A stretch of 35,778 nt of DNA from Thioalkalivibrio sulfidiphilus (GTDB taxonomy: Bacteria; Pseudomonadota; Gammaproteobacteria; Ectothiorhodospirales; Ectothiorhodospiraceae), in NCBI RefSeq assembly GCF_000377945.1, contig NZ_KB898950.1:1-35778 (forward strand), written 5' to 3'. Numbering within the stretch: position 1 is the stretch's first letter; every line of letters starts with the position of its first letter. Position numbers and translations under genes: made by a program. The notes under the pieces are model-generated. The model was not told the DNA's origin. It did not search any database and worked only from the letters and a program-made list of their open reading frames with translations. Below are positions 2,773-14,558 of the stretch, piece by piece.

Positions 2773-3015
2773 CCGCTATCCATGTCTGCACTGGACGGTC
2801 TTATTGTTGTCTGTGGCGTCGCCGGCCTGCTCATCCAGACAGTCAACACCCCGTGGATACTCCTCGCTGTATCGGCAGATGCCGGGAAACCCTTGAATAT
2901 TCCCTCAACGCTACTCGGGTATGCCAACACTGGAGTATCAGCCTTGGCTTAAAGACCAGCATGAGGCGAAGGACAGCAGGAGGGTTTTTCCCGACAGGTG
3001 GAGGGCCTTACAAAG

Positions 3016-3043
3016 AAAAAGGCCCTGACCATCCCTGGCAGGG
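3016..3043 (-). terminator. Probable terminator of the LAGLIDADG gene
   Basis: Read on the minus strand, a stem of seven base pairs with one bulged base and a six-base loop is followed by CC and five T residues. It closely resembles the ssrA terminator at 3552-3585: both share an A-run followed by GCCCTGACC on the plus strand. It lies 25 bases beyond the endonuclease stop codon. Confidence 0.55.
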
Positions 3044-3067
3044 TGTGCACTGACAGCTGTGGATCGA

Positions 3068-3511
3068 TCAAGAGTTGGAGAGTGGTTTGATGTCGAGCAC
3101 AGCCTTTTCAAAATGCTGTCTCGCCTGCTGGAGTTTCTCTGTGTATTTGCCGTTTCGTGGCGTCAGGGCTAGATAGTCACGAAGTATCAGTTCCGTTCGC
3201 GCGGCCTTATAACCCCGCAGGTACGGTCGTACCTGTTCAAGCAGCCGGAGCGCCTGTCTGTTGTAGACGGCGTAGGTGTAGCTGGGTGAGTGGTGGGTCT
3301 GTGCAACCCGTTTTCGCGTGATCTTGCCGACCCCGAGGGTTTGTTTGACGAAGTCCAACAGATTCTGCTCGGTGCTGCTGATGGTCACCGCGAGCTGGCG
3401 GTTTTCGTTGCGGTGTTTCCGGGTGAGGGTGACCGTGCCTTCTCCATCAATCAGTCCAGCGATGTAGGCGGCGTCCACCTCGGGCAGCTTTTCCAGACTC
3501 ATCCCTGTCAC
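3068..3511 (-). CDS. Single-motif LAGLIDADG homing endonuclease-like protein
   Basis: About 147 residues. The N-terminal stretch YIAGLIDGEGTV (near residues 16-28) is a LAGLIDADG motif, and the acidic residue of GLIDGEG is the expected metal-binding residue. Only one motif is present, so the family rule predicts a homodimer that cuts a near-palindromic site. The rest is basic, as expected for a DNA-binding protein (KHRNENR, KITRKRV). The longest frame starts at GTG 3511; an in-frame ATG at 3502 (MSLEKL) is also possible and has AGGG directly upstream, so the start is uncertain. The gene has the same strand as ssrA and begins about 40 bases beyond the ssrA terminator, outside the ssrA intron. 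The natural inference is that it cuts, or once cut, intronless ssrA. It could instead be a maturase or an inactive remnant. Confidence 0.8.
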   Translation of the reverse strand: MTGMSLEKLPEVDAAYIAGLIDGEGTVTLTRKHRNENRQLAVTISSTEQNLLDFVKQTLGVGKITRKRVAQTHHSPSYTYAVYNRQALRLLEQVRPYLRGYKAARTELILRDYLALTPRNGKYTEKLQQARQHFEKAVLDIKPLSNS

Positions 3512-3551
3512 TCATTCGTCCGTGGCTGGCTGGCCTGAGTATAGCCCCAAG

Positions 3552-3585
3552 AAAAAAGCCCTGACCGTTACCGGTCAGGGCTTTT
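3552..3585 (-). terminator. Rho-independent terminator of ssrA
   Basis: A perfect 10-bp stem (3558-3567 with 3572-3581) with a four-base loop is followed on the minus strand by six T residues. It starts six bases beyond the CCA end of ssrA. Confidence 0.9.
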
Positions 3586-3607
3586 AGTGATGGTGGAGGC
3601 GGCGGGA

Positions 3608-3880
3608 CAGTGATCCATATCTTTCGATATGGGCTGGACTATACCTTCATCCTGTTGCCAGGATGCGGGGCGTGTTATTCACGGTATGGTTTTCCGTGAA
3701 TCCTAGTGCCGGCTCTGTTCCCATGAACTCAGCCGGTCTATGAGTCTCTACAGGGCAGGCCTGAGGTTAGCCCTCTTCCTACCCCTCGGTGTTGCCGTAG
3801 CAGGTTGCCCTGCCGTAGGGTCCACCGATGTGAGCCCCGTTTTCACTCTACCCTTACGGGTAGAGGCGACCATTGTGTTA
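3608..3880 (-). mobile_element. Group I intron in the tmRNA T-loop
   Basis: A 273-nt insert between the sixth and seventh bases of the T loop. The upstream exon ends in U and the insert ends in G, as group I splicing requires. Exon bases CGAU (3881-3884) can pair with GUCG (3867-3870) inside the insert, giving a P1 helix with the diagnostic U-G wobble at the 5' splice site. Near the 3' end lies GGTATAGTCC (3636-3645), matching the conserved S element of P7. An upstream GACTCATA can pair with its TATAGTC with one bulged base. Strong hairpins capped by GUAA (3846-3865), GCAA (3648-3665) and GAAA (3615-3632) fit P2, a P8-like and a P9-like helix. There is no internal reading frame. I recall group I introns at this site in some other bacterial ssrA genes. 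Self-splicing is inferred, not shown. Confidence 0.88.
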
Positions 3881-4086
3881 ATCGAACCCGCGTCCGCAGG
3901 ACCTACATCCTTGGATACTACATGCTTAGTGCCGTCATTTGATTTTACGTTTGAGTCTCCGACGGACAGGATACCCAGACGCGATCCCGATTGGATTTAA
4001 CGGTTAAGACCCGGGCGAGTCCGCTCCGCGAGCTTGTGTGCGATGACCTTCAAGTAGGACCCACAAGCAAGTCCAGTCGAAGGTCT

Positions 4087-4154
4087 AGCTGGTTTTACGC
4101 AGCCAGAGCGTAGTTGTCGTCGTTGGCAACTATAGCGTAACAGCTGGTTTTACG
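4087..4154 (-). repeat. 13-nt direct repeat flanking the tmRNA tag frame
   Basis: The 13-mer CGTAAAACCAGCT (minus strand) occurs at 4142-4154, upstream of the resume codon, and again at 4087-4099, where it contains the tag stop codon. The period is 55 bases. Each copy may sit in a different helix or pseudoknot of the tmRNA ring. Confidence 0.8.
4095..4127 (-). other. tmRNA tag reading frame (ANDDNYALAA)
   Basis: Ten codons and a TAA stop inside ssrA, from resume codon GCC (4125-4127). The translation ANDDNYALAA differs from the E. coli tag at one residue (D for E) and keeps the YALAA end read by ClpXP-type proteases. The AUAGU just before the resume codon is the usual upstream signal. Confidence 0.93.
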
Positions 4155-4354
4155 AGGGAAGCTGTCTCCTCGGCATGCACCTCGGGTTTCGCGAACCACG
4201 TCGAAGCCAGGTCGCCCCCATTTTTGGTACTGAACAATAAGACACACATGATCCGCGGAAGTTCCCCCTTCGGCATCGCTTCCGACGGTGCCGCGGACAG
4301 GCCTTTACAGTATCATAGTCGGCCTTCCTTCACAGCACTTTACCGGGGTCTGCG

Positions 4355-7300
4355 ATGCTGTTTCTGCCTGGGGCGCCCGCCCTGTCCGATTTCCGTCTGG
4401 AGCGCCTGCTGGGTCAGCTCCGGGAGACCGAACCCACGATCCAGGGGCTGGACGCCCGGTTCGTCTATTTCGTGGATCTGGACAGGGCCCTGACCACGGC
4501 AGAGCAGGCGATTCTCGAGGCCCTGCTGGAGACGGCGGGCACAGCCCCTGCGGAGACGGCGGACTTCCTGGTGGTGCCACGCCTGGGCACCGTCTCCCCC
4601 TGGTCCAGCAAGGCCACCGACATCGCCCATCACTGCGGCCTGGACGGCGCCGTGCGGCGCATCGAGCGGGGCATCAGTTACCGCCTCGAGGCCGACAAGA
4701 CGTTGGACATCCCCGGCCGGCGGCGCCTGGCCGGTCTGCTGCACGACCGCATGACCGAGACCGTCCTCCTGGATCCTGCCGAGGCGGATCGCCTGTTCGT
4801 GCACCATGAGCCCGCTCCGGTGACGGTGATCGAGCTGGGCGACGACGCCCGGGGCGCCCTCGAGCGGGCCAACGCCGAGATGGGGCTGGCCCTGTCCGGT
4901 GAGGAGATCGACTACCTGGCGGAGGCCTACGGCGCCCTGGGGCGGGCACCCACGGATGTGGAACTGATGATGTTCGCCCAGGCCAACTCCGAGCACTGCC
5001 GGCACAAGATCTTCAACGCGGACTGGGTGATCGACGGCGAGGCGAAGGAGAAGTCCCTGTTCGCCATGATCCGCAACACCTATCACCACGCACCCCAGGG
5101 CATCCTGTCCGCCTACCGTGACAATGCCGCCGCCATGGAAGGGGCCCGGGGCCGGCGTTTCATGCCGGATCCGGAGTCGGGCGAGTACCGGGCGGAGGAG
5201 ATGGACCTGCCCATCATCATGAAGGTGGAGACCCACAACCACCCCACCGCCATCTCGCCCTTCCCGGGGGCCGCCACCGGCGCCGGCGGCGAGATCCGCG
5301 ACGAGGGGGCCACGGGACGGGGCTCCAAGCCCAAGGCGGGGCTCACGGGCTTCTCGGTCTCCAACCTGCGCATCCCGGGCTTCGAGCAGCCCTGGGAGAC
5401 GGACCACGGGAAGCCCGGGCGCATCGAGAGCGCCCTGCGCATCATGCTGGACGGGCCCATCGGCGCGGCGGCCTTCAACAACGAGTTCGGCCGTCCCGCC
5501 CTGGCCGGGTATTTCCGCACCTTCGAGGAGCGGGTGCCGGGCCCCGGTGGTGAACAGCTGCGGGGCTATCACAAGCCCATCATGATCGCCGGCGGCCTGG
5601 GCAGCATGCGCCCGGAACACGTGGAGAAGCTGGGGCTGCCCGAGGGCACGCCGGTGGTGGTGCTGGGCGGTCCGGCCATGCTCATCGGCCTGGGCGGTGG
5701 CGCGGCCTCGTCGGTGGCCAGCGGCGAGAGCGCGGAGGACCTGGACTTCGCCTCGGTGCAGCGGGGCAACCCGGAGATGGAACGCCGCTGCCAGGAGGTG
5801 ATCGATCGCTGCACCGCCATGGGTGAGGCCAATCCCATCCTGTCCATCCACGACGTGGGCGCGGGTGGCCTGTCCAACGCGGTGCCGGAGATCCTGAACG
5901 ACGCCGGTCGCGGCGGTGCCATCGAACTGCGCACCGTGCCCTCTGATGAGCCGGGCATGTCGCCCATGGAGATCTGGTGCAACGAGGCCCAGGAACGCTA
6001 CGTGCTGGCCATCGACCCGGATCGCCTGGAGGTGTTCTCCGCCCTGTGCGAGCGGGAGCGGGCACCGTATGCCGTGATCGGCACCGCCACTGCCGATCAG
6101 CGCCTGCTGGTGGGTGACGGGTTGTTTCACAACGAGCCCGTGGACCTGCCCATGGAGGTGCTCCTGGGCAAACCGCCCAAGATGTTGCGCGAGGTCCATC
6201 ACCAGACCTTCCACAAGCCCGAGTTCGACACCTCGAACGTGGATCTCGTCGACGCGGTGCAGCGTGTGCTGCGTCTGCCCTCGGTGGCCTCCAAGTCCTT
6301 CCTCATCACTATCGGTGACCGGAGCATCACCGGCCTGGTGAGCCGGGACCAGATGGTGGGTCCCTGGCAGGTGCCGGTGGCGGACGTGGCGGTCACCGCC
6401 ACGGACCTGTTCGGCCACACCGGCGAGGCCATGGCCATGGGCGAACGCGCCCCCATCGCCCTGGTGCACCCCGCCGCCTCCGGTCGCATGGCCATCGGCG
6501 AGACCGTGACCAACCTGATGGCTGCCGACATCGGTGCCATCGGCAATATCCGCCTGTCCGCCAACTGGATGGCCGCCGCCGGTCATCCCGGCGAGGATGC
6601 GGCCCTGTTCGACACGGTGAAGGCGGTGGGCGAGGAACTGTGTCCGCGCCTTGGCCTCGCCATCCCCGTGGGCAAGGACTCGCTGTCGATGAAGACCGTG
6701 TGGAAGGACGCGGGCGGCGAGCAGGTGATGACCGCGCCGGTGTCCCTGATCGTCACCGGCTTCGCCCCGGTGGAGGACATCCGTCGGACCCGTACGCCCC
6801 AGCTGCGCACCGACCTGGGGGATACCGACCTGATCCTCATCGACCTGGGCAAGGGCCACAACCGCCTGGCGGGTTCGGCGCTCGCCCAGGTGTACAAGCA
6901 GGTGGGCCACCACGCCCCGGACCTGGACGACCCGGACATGCTCAAGCGCTGCTTCGCGGCCGTCCAGGAACTCAATCGCGAGGGGAGGGTACTGGCCCTG
7001 CATGACCGCTCCGACGGCGGCCTCATGGCCACGCTCTGCGAGATGGCCTTCGCCGGACACACCGGCGTGACCGTGCACCTGGACGACCTGGGACCGGACC
7101 CGGTGGCAGCCCTGTTCAGCGAGGAGCTGGGCATTCTCCTGCAGGTGCGTCACGAAGACACCGAGGAGGTGCTCTCGGCCCTGCGGGAGGCGGAGCTGGG
7201 TCATCACAGCCACGTGATCGGCAACCTCAACGGCGAGGATCGCATCGAGTTCTGCCGCGGCCGCCAGGTGCTGTACGGCGCCGCGCGTGCCGAGTTGCAG

Positions 7301-11974: not shown

Positions 11975-12928
11975 GGTGCCCATCTCCTTGTCCAGCCAGA
12001 CGCCGAGGCCCTGGACGTTCAGGCCCACGTCCGGCCCGAGCAGCCGGGTCATGTCCGCCTTGGGCAGCGTGCAGCCGTGGGCACGGGCACGCTGCAGCAG
12101 CAGGGTCATCATCTCGCGGCAGAGCTTCGCGTGGCGGGCTGTGCCCGCATGGGCATGCTCCCGCGCCATGGCCACAAAGGCGTCGATCAACTGGTGCATG
12201 TCCGCCTGCAGGCGGGGCAGGTCGCCCACCCGGCTGTAGTGGGTGAGGTACATGTAGGACAGCCCCTGACCCATCAGTCGGTCCACGGAGGCGTGCAGCG
12301 CGTCCGGGTCGAACTGGACGGGCGTGGTCGTGGGAAACACGAACGGACCGTTTTCGGTGTCGAACTCCCGGTAGGACAGGCCGAAGGTGTCACCGGAAAA
12401 GATGCCGTCGCCGGTCTTGTCCACCACGCAGAAATGGTGCCGCGCGTGGCCAGGTGTGTCCAGAAAGCGCAAGGGCCGGCCGTTGAAATCCAGCTCGAAT
12501 CCGTCGTTTGCCTCGATGATCCGGTCCTCGGGCACGGGAATGACCCGGCCGAACAGGCGTTCCATCTGCGTCTCGCCATACACGGCGGTGGCCCCCGCAT
12601 TGAGTTTCGAGGGGTCGATCATGTGCCGGGCGCCACGGGGGTGGATCACCAGGCGGGCATTGGGCAGGTGCTGCATCAGCGCGCCCGCGCCGCCGGCATG
12701 GTCCAGGTGCACGTGGGTAGGGATCACGTAGTCCACGTTCTCCCGGGGGATGCCCTTGAGATCCAGTACCTCCAAAAGTCCCGGCACGGAATGGGCGGTA
12801 CCCGTCTCTATGAACGCCGCCCGATCGCCCTGGACCACCAGGTAGGTGGACACCTGGCCCTGGCGATAGAGCTGGGCATCGATCATGGTGATGCCGTGGC
12901 CGAGATCTTCGTAATGTACGTTGGTCAT
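11969..12928 (-). CDS. Metallo-beta-lactamase-fold hydrolase
   Basis: 319 residues. The motif THVHLDHAGG (near residue 71) is the HxHxDH zinc-binding signature of the metallo-beta-lactamase superfamily. Later ligands are likely His in DTPGHARHH, Asp in FSGDTFGLS and His in LTHYSR. There is no signal peptide, so the protein is cytoplasmic. The C-terminal 90 residues, helical and rich in His, Arg and Met, lie outside the core fold. The substrate is unknown; relatives include glyoxalase II-like thioesterases. Its place between prpD and acuI suggests, but does not prove, action on an acyl-CoA or related ester. ATG 12928 is followed by a normal N-terminus; upstream is a long inverted repeat separating it from prpD. 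Confidence 0.88.
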   Translation of the reverse strand: MTNVHYEDLGHGITMIDAQLYRQGQVSTYLVVQGDRAAFIETGTAHSVPGLLEVLDLKGIPRENVDYVIPTHVHLDHAGGAGALMQHLPNARLVIHPRGARHMIDPSKLNAGATAVYGETQMERLFGRVIPVPEDRIIEANDGFELDFNGRPLRFLDTPGHARHHFCVVDKTGDGIFSGDTFGLSYREFDTENGPFVFPTTTPVQFDPDALHASVDRLMGQGLSYMYLTHYSRVGDLPRLQADMHQLIDAFVAMAREHAHAGTARHAKLCREMMTLLLQRARAHGCTLPKADMTRLLGPDVGLNVQGLGVWLDKEMGTA

Positions 12929-12955
12929 GTGGGTTACCTTCGAAGAGCCAGGATT

Positions 12956-13101
12956 GCCGCAGAGACGCGGAGGCGCAGAGGGACAAGGGATCTGACAGGA
13001 TTTACATGATTAACAGGATTGAATCAAAGAAAAATGGATTTCTGAGAATCCTGTTAATCCTGTCAAATTGATCTTTCTCTGCGCCTCCGCGTCTCTGCGG
13101 C
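12956..13101. repeat. Long nested inverted repeat between prpD and the hydrolase gene
   Basis: Perfect 25-base outer arms (12956-12980 and 13077-13101, core CAGAGACGCGGAGGCGCAG) enclose a second pair based on GACAGGATT...TTAACAGGATT (12994-13020) and AATCCTGTTAATCCTGTC (13047-13064). Elements of the same families occur at 17516-17617 and 35462-35523. A transcript of either strand would form a very stable hairpin. Confidence 0.92.
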
Positions 13102-13109
13102 AAAAGATC

Positions 13110-14558
13110 TCAAATCAAGAACAGATCCATGAATTCGTGCACCGGGGTCGCCGCGAGACGCTTCGGATCCTTGCACAGGTCGTAGATGCGCGCGGCCTGG
13201 CCCCGGGGGAAACGGGTGCGCAGGGCGTCGCGGAACTTGTTTTCCAGGACAGGTATGCCCTCGGCGCGGCGGCGGCGGTGGCCGATGGGATATTCCACCT
13301 CCACCTTCTCGGTGCTGCTGCCGTCCTTGAAGAAGACCTGCACGGCGTTGGCGATGGAGCGCTTGTCCGGGTCGTGGTAGTCCTTTGAGTAACGCGGATC
13401 TTCCACCACGCGCATCTTTTCGCGCAAGGCGTCGATACGCGGGTCGGCGGCCACCTCGTCCTCGTAGTGGCGGGCGGTGAGTTCGCCGAAGATCAGGGGC
13501 ACGGCCACCATGTACTGCAGGCAGTGGTCCCGGTCCGCCGGGTTGTGCAGGGGACCGTCCTTGCTGATGATGCGCACCGCGGATTCCTGGGTGCTCAGTT
13601 CGATGCGATCAATCTGGTCGAGGCGGTCCTTCACCTGGTCGTGCAACTGCATGGCGCATTCCACCGCCGTCTGGGCGTGGAACTCGGCGGGGAAGCTGAT
13701 CTTGAACAGCACGTTCTCCATCACGTAGCTGCCGTAGTCACGCTGGAAGCGGAACTTCTCGCCCTTGAACAGCACGTCATAGAAGCCCCAGCGGGGCGCG
13801 GACAGCACGCTGGGCAAGCCCATCTCGCCCTTCATCACCATCAGCGCCAGTCGCACCGCGCGGCCGCAGGCATCGCCCGCCGCCCAGGACTTGCGTGAGC
13901 CGGTATTGGGCGCGTGGCGATAGGTGCGCAGTGCCTGGCCGTCCACCCAGGCCTGGGACAGGGCATCGATTACCTGTTCACGGCTGGCGCCCAGCATGTG
14001 GGCGGCCACCGCCGCCGAGGCCACCTTCACCAGAACCACGTGGTCCAGGCCTACACGGTTGAAGCTGTTCTCCAATGCCAGCACACCCTGGATCTCGTGG
14101 GCCTTGATCATGTAACGCAGCACGTCGTCGATGTTCATGGGCTTCTTGCCCTCGGCCACCGCCTTGCGACTCAGGTGATCGGCCAGGCCCAGGATGGTGC
14201 CCAGGTTGTCCGAGGGGTGGCCCCATTCCGCGGCCAGCCAGGTGTCGTTGAAGTCCAGCCAGCGCACCATGGCGCCGATGTTGAAGGCGGCCTGGATGGG
14301 GTCGAGCTGAAACTGGGTACCGGGGATGCGGCTGCCATTGGGCACCACGGTGCCCGGGACCACGGGCCCCAGGTGCTTGGTGCATTCCGGGTACTGCAGT
14401 GCCAGCATGGCGCAGCCCAGGGAATCCATCAGGCAGTTGCGGGCCGTGTCCAGGGCCTCGGCGGAATCGATGGGGTAGTCGCAGACGTAGTCCGCGATGG
14501 CTTTCAGTTCCGGATCGGGTTCGGGGCGGACGTTGGTGTCGGCGATGTGGTGACTCAT
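13110..14558 (-). CDS. prpD: 2-methylcitrate dehydratase
   Basis: 482 residues, matching E. coli PrpD. It dehydrates 2-methylcitrate to 2-methyl-cis-aconitate in the methylcitrate cycle and needs no iron-sulfur cluster. Family segments include [22 protein letters not shown] (about 45-66), [20 protein letters not shown] (about 100), [13 protein letters not shown] and [18 protein letters not shown]. The frame is open for 45 codons further upstream, but that stretch is repeat sequence. ATG 14558 (MSHHIADTN) is preceded by GGAG at proper spacing and gives the family length, so I chose it. About 150 bases of repeats separate it from prpC. The cluster has PrpD rather than the AcnD-PrpF pair. Confidence 0.96.

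Follow-up and report, generated by a model that had tools for sequence, protein, structure and literature searches.

A group I intron in the T-loop of ssrA and an adjacent free-standing LAGLIDADG endonuclease gene: a candidate collaborative homing pair in Gammaproteobacteria

Results

The interrupted ssrA gene

The window analysed here, a stretch of 35,778 nucleotides of the Thioalkalivibrio sulfidiphilus contig NZ_KB898950.1 (assembly GCF_000377945.1), carries an ssrA (tmRNA) gene with a group I intron in its T-loop and, as the next ORF about 100 bp downstream, a gene for a LAGLIDADG homing endonuclease that was absent from the original prediction (Table 1). The 5' exon of ssrA holds the tRNA-like 5' half, the tag frame, the pseudoknot region, the 5' strand of the T-stem and T-loop nucleotides 1-6 (UUCGAU), and the 3' exon holds the last T-loop base, the 3' strands of the T-stem and of the acceptor, and an encoded CCA. 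The Rfam tmRNA model RF00023 matches positions 3858-4219 of the minus strand (174.9 bits, E 9.3e-70) and loses its register only at the T-arm interruption. The terminator-like hairpin that follows ssrA was absent from the output of a simple consensus terminator scan, and a promoter scan returned no site within window positions 3000-4400. The genome (3.05 Mb in 69 contigs, rated 100% complete) has one copy of SmpB, and the ssrA of the window is its only RF00023 match over the cut-off. A second, uninterrupted ssrA was therefore rejected; such a contiguous copy elsewhere in the genome, which the original prediction had named as evidence that would speak against it, was looked for and none over the cut-off was found. 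ARAGORN, as run on the window, reported no tmRNA, and the RF00023 match extends into the intron; genes of this kind may therefore be lost or shortened in automatic annotation.

Table 1. Features of the ssrA locus, in positions of the window
Feature	Position	Strand	Basis or remark
ssrA (tmRNA gene)	3591-4219	minus	interrupted in T-loop at 3608-3880
ssrA 5' exon, 339 nt	3881-4219	minus	RF00023; comparison with uninterrupted relatives
ssrA 3' exon, 17 nt	3591-3607	minus	sequence; relatives
Tag peptide frame, ANDDNYALAA then stop	4095-4127	minus	sequence, by eye
Group I intron, 273 nt, last base G, preceded by U	3608-3880	minus	RF00028; empty-site comparison; covariation of 33 distinct introns
P1 helix across 5' splice site, -1 U facing G	3867-3884	minus	U-G in 33/33 distinct introns
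P3 5' strand, partner 3666-3671	3834-3839	minus	G-C/C-G and A-U/G-C exchanges, 97% of cells paired
P3 3' strand	3666-3671	minus	same alignment
P4-P5-P6 domain	3752-3828	minus	structure and alignment
P7 5' strand, guanosine-binding helix by position, partner 3636-3640	3743-3748	minus	five pairs, unchanged in 33/33
P7 3' strand, within GGTATAGTCC, a motif named in the original prediction	3636-3640	minus	structure and alignment
P8, weakest helix	3648-3665	minus	62.8% of cells paired
P9 with GAAA loop	3615-3632	minus	99.1% paired; both-sided changes in 5/7 pairs
ssrA terminator-like hairpin into U tract, between ssrA and endonuclease gene	3554-3585	minus	fold -26.4 kcal/mol, z -6.0
LAGLIDADG homing endonuclease gene, free-standing, 144 aa from ATG 3502 (open to GTG 3511)	3068-3502	minus	Pfam, AlphaFold, I-CreI fold

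Ends and structure of the intron

The ends of the insert can be read from four relatives with an uninterrupted ssrA (G006, G007, G010 and G016), all of which read GGACGCGGGTTCGATTCCCGCCGCCTCCACCA with the T-arm GCGGG-TTCGATT-CCCGC. The T-arm of the window is the same sequence with exactly 273 nt added after TTCGAT, which places the insert at 3608-3880. A one-base slide of these ends is possible because a U lies on both sides of the site, and the terminal-G rule fixes them at those positions. Removal of the intron leaves UUCGAU joined to U, a 7-nt loop as in the uninterrupted relatives, and by our own numbering of the loop gaps we take the insertion to be at T-loop position 7 of PMC11915505. 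The group I intron model RF00028, which together with the tmRNA model had been proposed as a check by the original prediction, matches positions 3615-3890 of the minus strand over its full length (1-253) with 33.8 bits (E 7.8e-7 for 681 nt), a score below the Rfam gathering score of 50; this is the only match in the genome up to E 1. The fold of the intron region is far stronger than that of its shuffles (z -7.0), and at 273 nt, without an ORF, the intron is too small for a core plus an endonuclease domain. Judged by its structure, the insert in the tmRNA T-loop is a group I intron, which would be expected to self-splice and restore the 7-nt T-loop.

Introns were located by sequence pattern in 45 loci, with the -1 U and the final G built into the locating patterns, and 34 of these introns, 33 of them distinct, were aligned; the duplicates L075, L076, G343 and G072 were left out, as were G004, L077, G195, G118, G338, G068 and G426. 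The structure drawn on the window sequence (P1, P2, P3, P4, P5, P6, P7, two hairpins after P7, P8 and P9) is kept in 90.4% of cells across the 33 distinct introns, for which covariation reached 0.437 compared to 0.162 in shuffled alignments and no more than 0.140 in slid versions of the structure. P1, P3, P4, P7 and P9 are preserved across the 33 introns; P7 is invariant, so that covariation neither supports nor contradicts it. The original prediction of a tmRNA gene split in its T-loop by a 273-nt group I intron at 3608-3880 is thus borne out by RF00023, the empty-site relatives and the covariation of the core, and its observation that the insert ends in G after a U, with a U-G wobble in P1, agrees with the empty-site comparison and with the G opposite the -1 U in 33/33 introns. 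One intron outside the alignment (L077:4547-4891) is 345 nt long, about 70 nt longer than its relatives, and by eye has a long inverted repeat near the expected P8.

The neighbouring endonuclease gene

The product of the neighbouring gene has a single motif, AYIAGLIDGEG, and matches PF14528 (E 1e-8) and PF00961 (E 8.3e-6), both above the cut-off. An AlphaFold model built on 20 sequences (mean pLDDT 93.5) was searched with Foldseek and VIA-align, and the top matches were the one-motif homodimers I-CreI, I-MsoI and I-CvuI (Z 15.1, 14.7 and 14.1), with the predicted fold shared over nearly the whole protein; I-CreI aligns over 129 residues with an rmsd of 2.6. The mRNA maturase 2ab5 ranked lower in structure (Z 11.9) and is the best PDB match by sequence (E 3.9e-5). 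Sequence identity to the three homodimers is 17-23%, and while I-CreI, I-MsoI and I-CvuI are intron-encoded, the gene described here lies outside the intron. The motif acid E21, at the position that we take to be the catalytic acid of the LAGLIDADG motif, is invariant in 20/20 family proteins, and a small one-motif endonuclease of this kind would, like I-CreI, be expected to function as a homodimer. Values of dN/dS fall at 0.05-0.17 in seven of eight endonuclease pairs, the eighth being saturated and dS exceeding 1 in most of the others, and as estimated from these pairs they indicate selection to keep the protein.

With a U-tract hairpin between it and ssrA, the endonuclease gene is part of neither the intron nor the tmRNA unit. 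An endonuclease encoded inside an intron with a distant 3' splice site was considered and rejected, because the 3' exon with its CCA and the terminator-like hairpin stand between. Among the 45 intron loci, duplicates included, the motif search succeeded in 39, and in these the motif starts 78-227 bp past the ssrA 3' end (median 113) on the same strand.

Distribution across genomes

Most tmRNA introns have been reported from Bacillota, and the class sample used here consisted of 369 Gammaproteobacteria genomes, one per species. A match to the endonuclease family was found in 20 of the 369, at ssrA in 20/20 (with one piece in G071 at the start of another contig). The ssrA was interrupted in 17 of these genomes, ten of which have full-length open endonuclease frames, and uninterrupted in three, all with broken genes (a stop in G116, frame breaks in G050 and a fragment in G157). 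A search for the pattern of the intron 5' end added G118 and G068, without an endonuclease, and G338, with a fossil recognised by eye. An endonuclease or its remnant therefore accompanies 18 of 20 interrupted ssrA genes and 3 of 283 genomes with the uninterrupted pattern (Fisher p 5.7e-24), and full-length open frames occur in 10 of the 20 and in none of the 283. The latter number was obtained from 285 pattern-matching genomes by setting aside G229 and G352, in which an intron is also present and which were counted as interrupted, and it may include a few chance matches, such as G353:C27 and G376:C85 appear to be among the about 150 pattern matches listed; the 66 of the 369 genomes with neither intron nor uninterrupted pattern were left out of the counts. 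Contig ends and MAG errors touch G001, G071, G229, G352, G406 and L083.

The same association was seen in the other collections. The endonuclease family occurs in 8 of 58 relatives, seven of which have the intron (G000, G002, G003, G004, G005, G008 and G001), including a relative in the genus of the window (G003) and a genome outside the class sample (G001) whose contig starts inside ssrA and whose endonuclease gene has kept a few codons at its start but is otherwise missing its first half. In the eighth, G050, ssrA is uninterrupted and adjoins pieces of a broken endonuclease gene, with another copy 8.4 kb off. Among genome contigs, 20 of the 21 endonuclease loci follow closely after ssrA, which is interrupted in 18 of these and uninterrupted, with the loop TTCGAGA, in two (L090 and L092). 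The remaining locus (L087) is at a contig start. In a phylum sample that included other Gammaproteobacteria the endonuclease was found in 1 of 319 genomes, the window's own, a rate below the 20 of 369 in the class sample. The family had no plasmid match; 29 phage records matched at less than 60% identity, the 20 listed all at less than 40%, and in IMG/VR the best 80 of 277 relatives were all at 40% identity or less. Carriage by phage or plasmid was rejected on the absence of plasmid matches and the distance of the viral relatives.

Several loci show further rearrangements around the ssrA 3' end. In G050 the dead endonuclease gene occurs twice together with the ssrA 3' end (L073:4426-4725 and 12821-13120), 8.4 kb apart, as though loss of the intron had been followed by entry of an island at the ssrA 3' end. 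In L083, L090/L252, L103 (G081) and L163 (G221) the endonuclease gene is immediately followed by another copy of the ssrA 3' end and so sits between direct repeats, which could have originated either as island attachment sites or as repair scars. G002 has, on the reverse strand of a 301-kb contig (L064), a second, divergent, uninterrupted ssrA, its other ssrA having the intron and a broken endonuclease. Two different ssrA genes, one of the gammaproteobacterial intron type, were also found in a MAG labelled Anaerolineae (L083/L262), probably as the result of a misbinned contig.

T-loop variants beside open endonuclease genes

Across 27 distinct loci with an open endonuclease frame and a readable ssrA, 24 ssrA genes are interrupted, three have the uninterrupted loop TTCGAGA or TTCGAAA and none has the ordinary uninterrupted loop. 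The variant loop is rare, occurring in 1 of the 285 class genomes with the uninterrupted pattern (G128, TTCGAAA), which has no endonuclease. The endonuclease copies that adjoin the ordinary uninterrupted loop are broken (G050, G116 and G157). Live genes only where the target is split or changed, and ordinary loops only where the gene is dead or absent, are what would be expected of an enzyme that cuts the ordinary T-loop, and such an enzyme would produce the pattern seen in these sequences.

A draw of 61 genomes from the Halieaceae, the family of Seongchinamella, included 48 with ssrA over the cut-off, and 46 of these ssrA genes were read. Seven of the 46 are interrupted, all with TTCGAT, and these have an intact endonuclease (G405 and G409), a broken one (G410, G416 and G449) or none that was recognised (G448 and G426). 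Three are uninterrupted with TTCGAGA or TTCGAAA, two with an intact endonuclease and one (G406) on a contig that ends 163 nt past ssrA. The other 36 have TTCAA, with neither intron nor recognised endonuclease and the rare loop in none; sequence downstream of ssrA exceeds 1 kb in 27 of them and is 325 nt or less in nine. The shift from TTCAA to TTCGAT in the interrupted genes fits exon flanks that would have been brought in with the intron. Endonuclease genes beside an uninterrupted rare-loop ssrA are those of L090:4977-5408, L092:3686-4135 and G459 (L301), with L090 and G459 from the Halieaceae draw, and this branch resembles a case of intronless homing in which the target is protected.

Intron types and the endonuclease tree

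Among the introns compared, two types can be told apart: A, the type of the window, with 76-99% identity to the window intron, and B, with 53-61%. A maximum-likelihood tree of 28 endonucleases is poorly resolved, with 5 of 25 inner branches starred; on it type A requires 8 changes (shuffled mean 8.4; as low in 250/500) and type B 9 changes (shuffled mean 9.2; as low in 284/500), and the intron-less endonuclease genes form one starred branch (99/99). The endonuclease of G005, beside a B intron, is 71% identical to that of the window, compared to 59% for G008, beside an A intron. After removal of five duplicate loci, intron and endonuclease distances correlated with r 0.14 (p 0.01), and with 0.095 (p 0.06) when the tmRNA body was taken into account. 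The case for joint descent of the two is thus weak by distances and at chance level by tree labels, which counts against strict joint transfer, and we read the sequences as those of one endonuclease lineage that would serve two intron lineages at one site.

Discussion

The neighbouring endonuclease changes how the intron is read, from a lone element to one half of a two-part system. The arrangement, an ORF-less intron and a separate endonuclease gene that adjoin the same host gene, leads us to propose that the two are a collaborative homing pair in a chromosomal RNA gene, a reading to which we assign a probability of roughly three in four and for which cleavage, cut position and route of transfer were inferred from sequence. 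The endonuclease would most likely recognise the T-arm of an uninterrupted ssrA, which is a natural inverted repeat in DNA and as such would suit a homodimer; the T-arm of tRNAs may in this way be a plausible natural target for homodimeric enzymes. By splitting the target the intron would shield its carrier, and where a carrier and an empty ssrA came together in one cell the enzyme would cut the empty T-loop. Repair from the carrier would then copy the intron, the 17-nt 3' exon and the endonuclease gene some 0.1 kb further on, the start of the motif being near enough to the ssrA end for copying in the same repair tract.

Several observations count against the homing pair. Interrupted ssrA genes are found without a recognised endonuclease in two genomes of the class sample (G118 and G068) and two of the Halieaceae (G448 and G426), so that the intron persists there alone, and the weak correlation of intron and endonuclease distances gives no direct sign of joint transfer. 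Further, the uninterrupted pattern has an additional match in G352, where an open endonuclease adjoins an interrupted ssrA, and G128 has the TTCGAAA loop without an endonuclease. A more tentative suggestion, which we hold at somewhat below even odds, is that the two elements act as an addiction-like pair, in which the endonuclease would make an empty T-loop untenable in its own cell, the intron would be the antidote and introns would be interchangeable shields for one endonuclease lineage. Should this be true, intron loss would occur only after the death of the endonuclease (G050, G116 and G157) or a change of the T-loop, and the tRNA-neutral change to TTCGAGA or TTCGAAA would replace the intron as the shield in the Halieaceae branch.

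Other explanations for the shared neighbourhood were weighed. The endonuclease may target some other site near the ssrA 3' end, with intron and gene held together by the same recombination tracts, given that the exact cut site is not readable from sequence, that ssrA 3' ends attract insertions and that in several genomes the endonuclease gene or fossil lies between duplicated ends; this is unlikely because open endonucleases coincide with a split T-loop (24/27) or a rare loop (3/27) and in none of the 27 with an ordinary loop. Some LAGLIDADG proteins act as maturases, and a trans-acting maturase that binds the ssrA intron RNA and aids its splicing, with homing secondary or lost, would agree with 2ab5 as the best PDB match by sequence (E 3.9e-5) and with a gene kept beside the intron under purifying selection. 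We regard it as less likely still, as introns have survived beside genes that are frameshifted (G345), truncated (G367), split (G092), degraded (G195) or internally deleted (G001), and where the gene is absent (G118 and G068), the fold is nearer to I-CreI (Z 15.1) than to 2ab5 (Z 11.9), and the endonuclease is also found beside an intron-less ssrA (L090, L092 and G459). An obligate maturase was rejected as the main reading on the persistence of introns beside dead or absent genes.

It is very improbable that an ordinary ORF-less tmRNA intron has acquired an endonuclease neighbour by chance at an insertion hotspot, even though all but 36 of 883 tmRNA introns are without an internal endonuclease gene and islands often integrate at tmRNA genes, according to PMC11915505. 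The association in the class sample (18/20 versus 3/283), on which coincidence was rejected, and the recurrence of the motif on the same strand 78-227 bp past the ssrA end (39 of the 45 intron loci, counted with duplicates) both speak against it. An insert that no longer splices, with ssrA reduced to a pseudogene and rescue left to another pathway, is the least probable of the alternatives: the RF00028 score below the gathering threshold would favour such a loss, but this is the sole ssrA found in a genome in which SmpB is present, both exons and the tag frame look intact, and P1, P3, P4, P7 and P9 are preserved across 33 introns.

The proposed collaborative homing pair can be placed among several known systems. 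The intron by itself belongs to a class that the original prediction had named as known, and PMC11915505 describes 883 intron-form tmRNA sequences from 21 phyla, most at T-loop position 7, with founding introns that average 293 bp and a homing endonuclease gene inside 36 of the 883. The window's gene has in common with these the host gene, the subsite (by our own numbering), the size class, the -1 U and terminal G, and the lack of an internal ORF, so that the earlier description of this copy as small and ORF-free is true but marks it as ordinary for the class. Where PMC11915505 describes endonuclease genes inside introns, the gene here is beside the tmRNA gene, a placement not mentioned in the available part of that report. 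As far as our searches of the open-licence PMC literature go, no report of an endonuclease gene beside a tmRNA gene was found, and the combination of intron and free-standing endonuclease at this gene appears not to have been described there.

In PMC6083498, PMC3984707 and PMC10448857, collaborative homing is described for the endonuclease F-CphI and the psbA intron of cyanophage S-PM2, where the intron prevents self-cleavage. Both that pair and the present one join an ORF-less group I intron to an adjacent free-standing endonuclease, but F-CphI is an Endo VII-type enzyme at a phage protein-coding gene for which cleavage has been reported, whereas here cleavage is predicted, the enzyme is of the LAGLIDADG type and the pair occurs in bacterial chromosomes, at a non-coding RNA gene and in many genomes in intact and decayed states. 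The branch formed by L090, L092 and G459, with an endonuclease, a changed T-loop and no intron, is comparable to the intronless homing by free-standing endonucleases set out in PMC3984707, unlike the window's own copy, which is paired with an intron.

The uninterrupted relatives G010 and G016 (L071 and L072 being the corresponding pair of loci) have, by eye, integrase-like frames directly downstream of ssrA, and an intron in the T-arm might also hinder integration at ssrA by integrases of this kind. To our knowledge, collaborative homing has been described only in phages, and the reading proposed here, if true, would extend it to bacterial chromosomes and to a non-coding RNA gene. It would also suggest how tmRNA introns can recur at one site although few of them encode an endonuclease: in Gammaproteobacteria the gene for the enzyme may lie outside the intron. 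The origin of mobile introns by the meeting of a free-standing endonuclease and an ORF-less intron at one target would become directly testable in this system with small proteins and short DNA targets, and the sequenced genomes would offer intact, decaying, intron-only, endonuclease-only and post-loss states.
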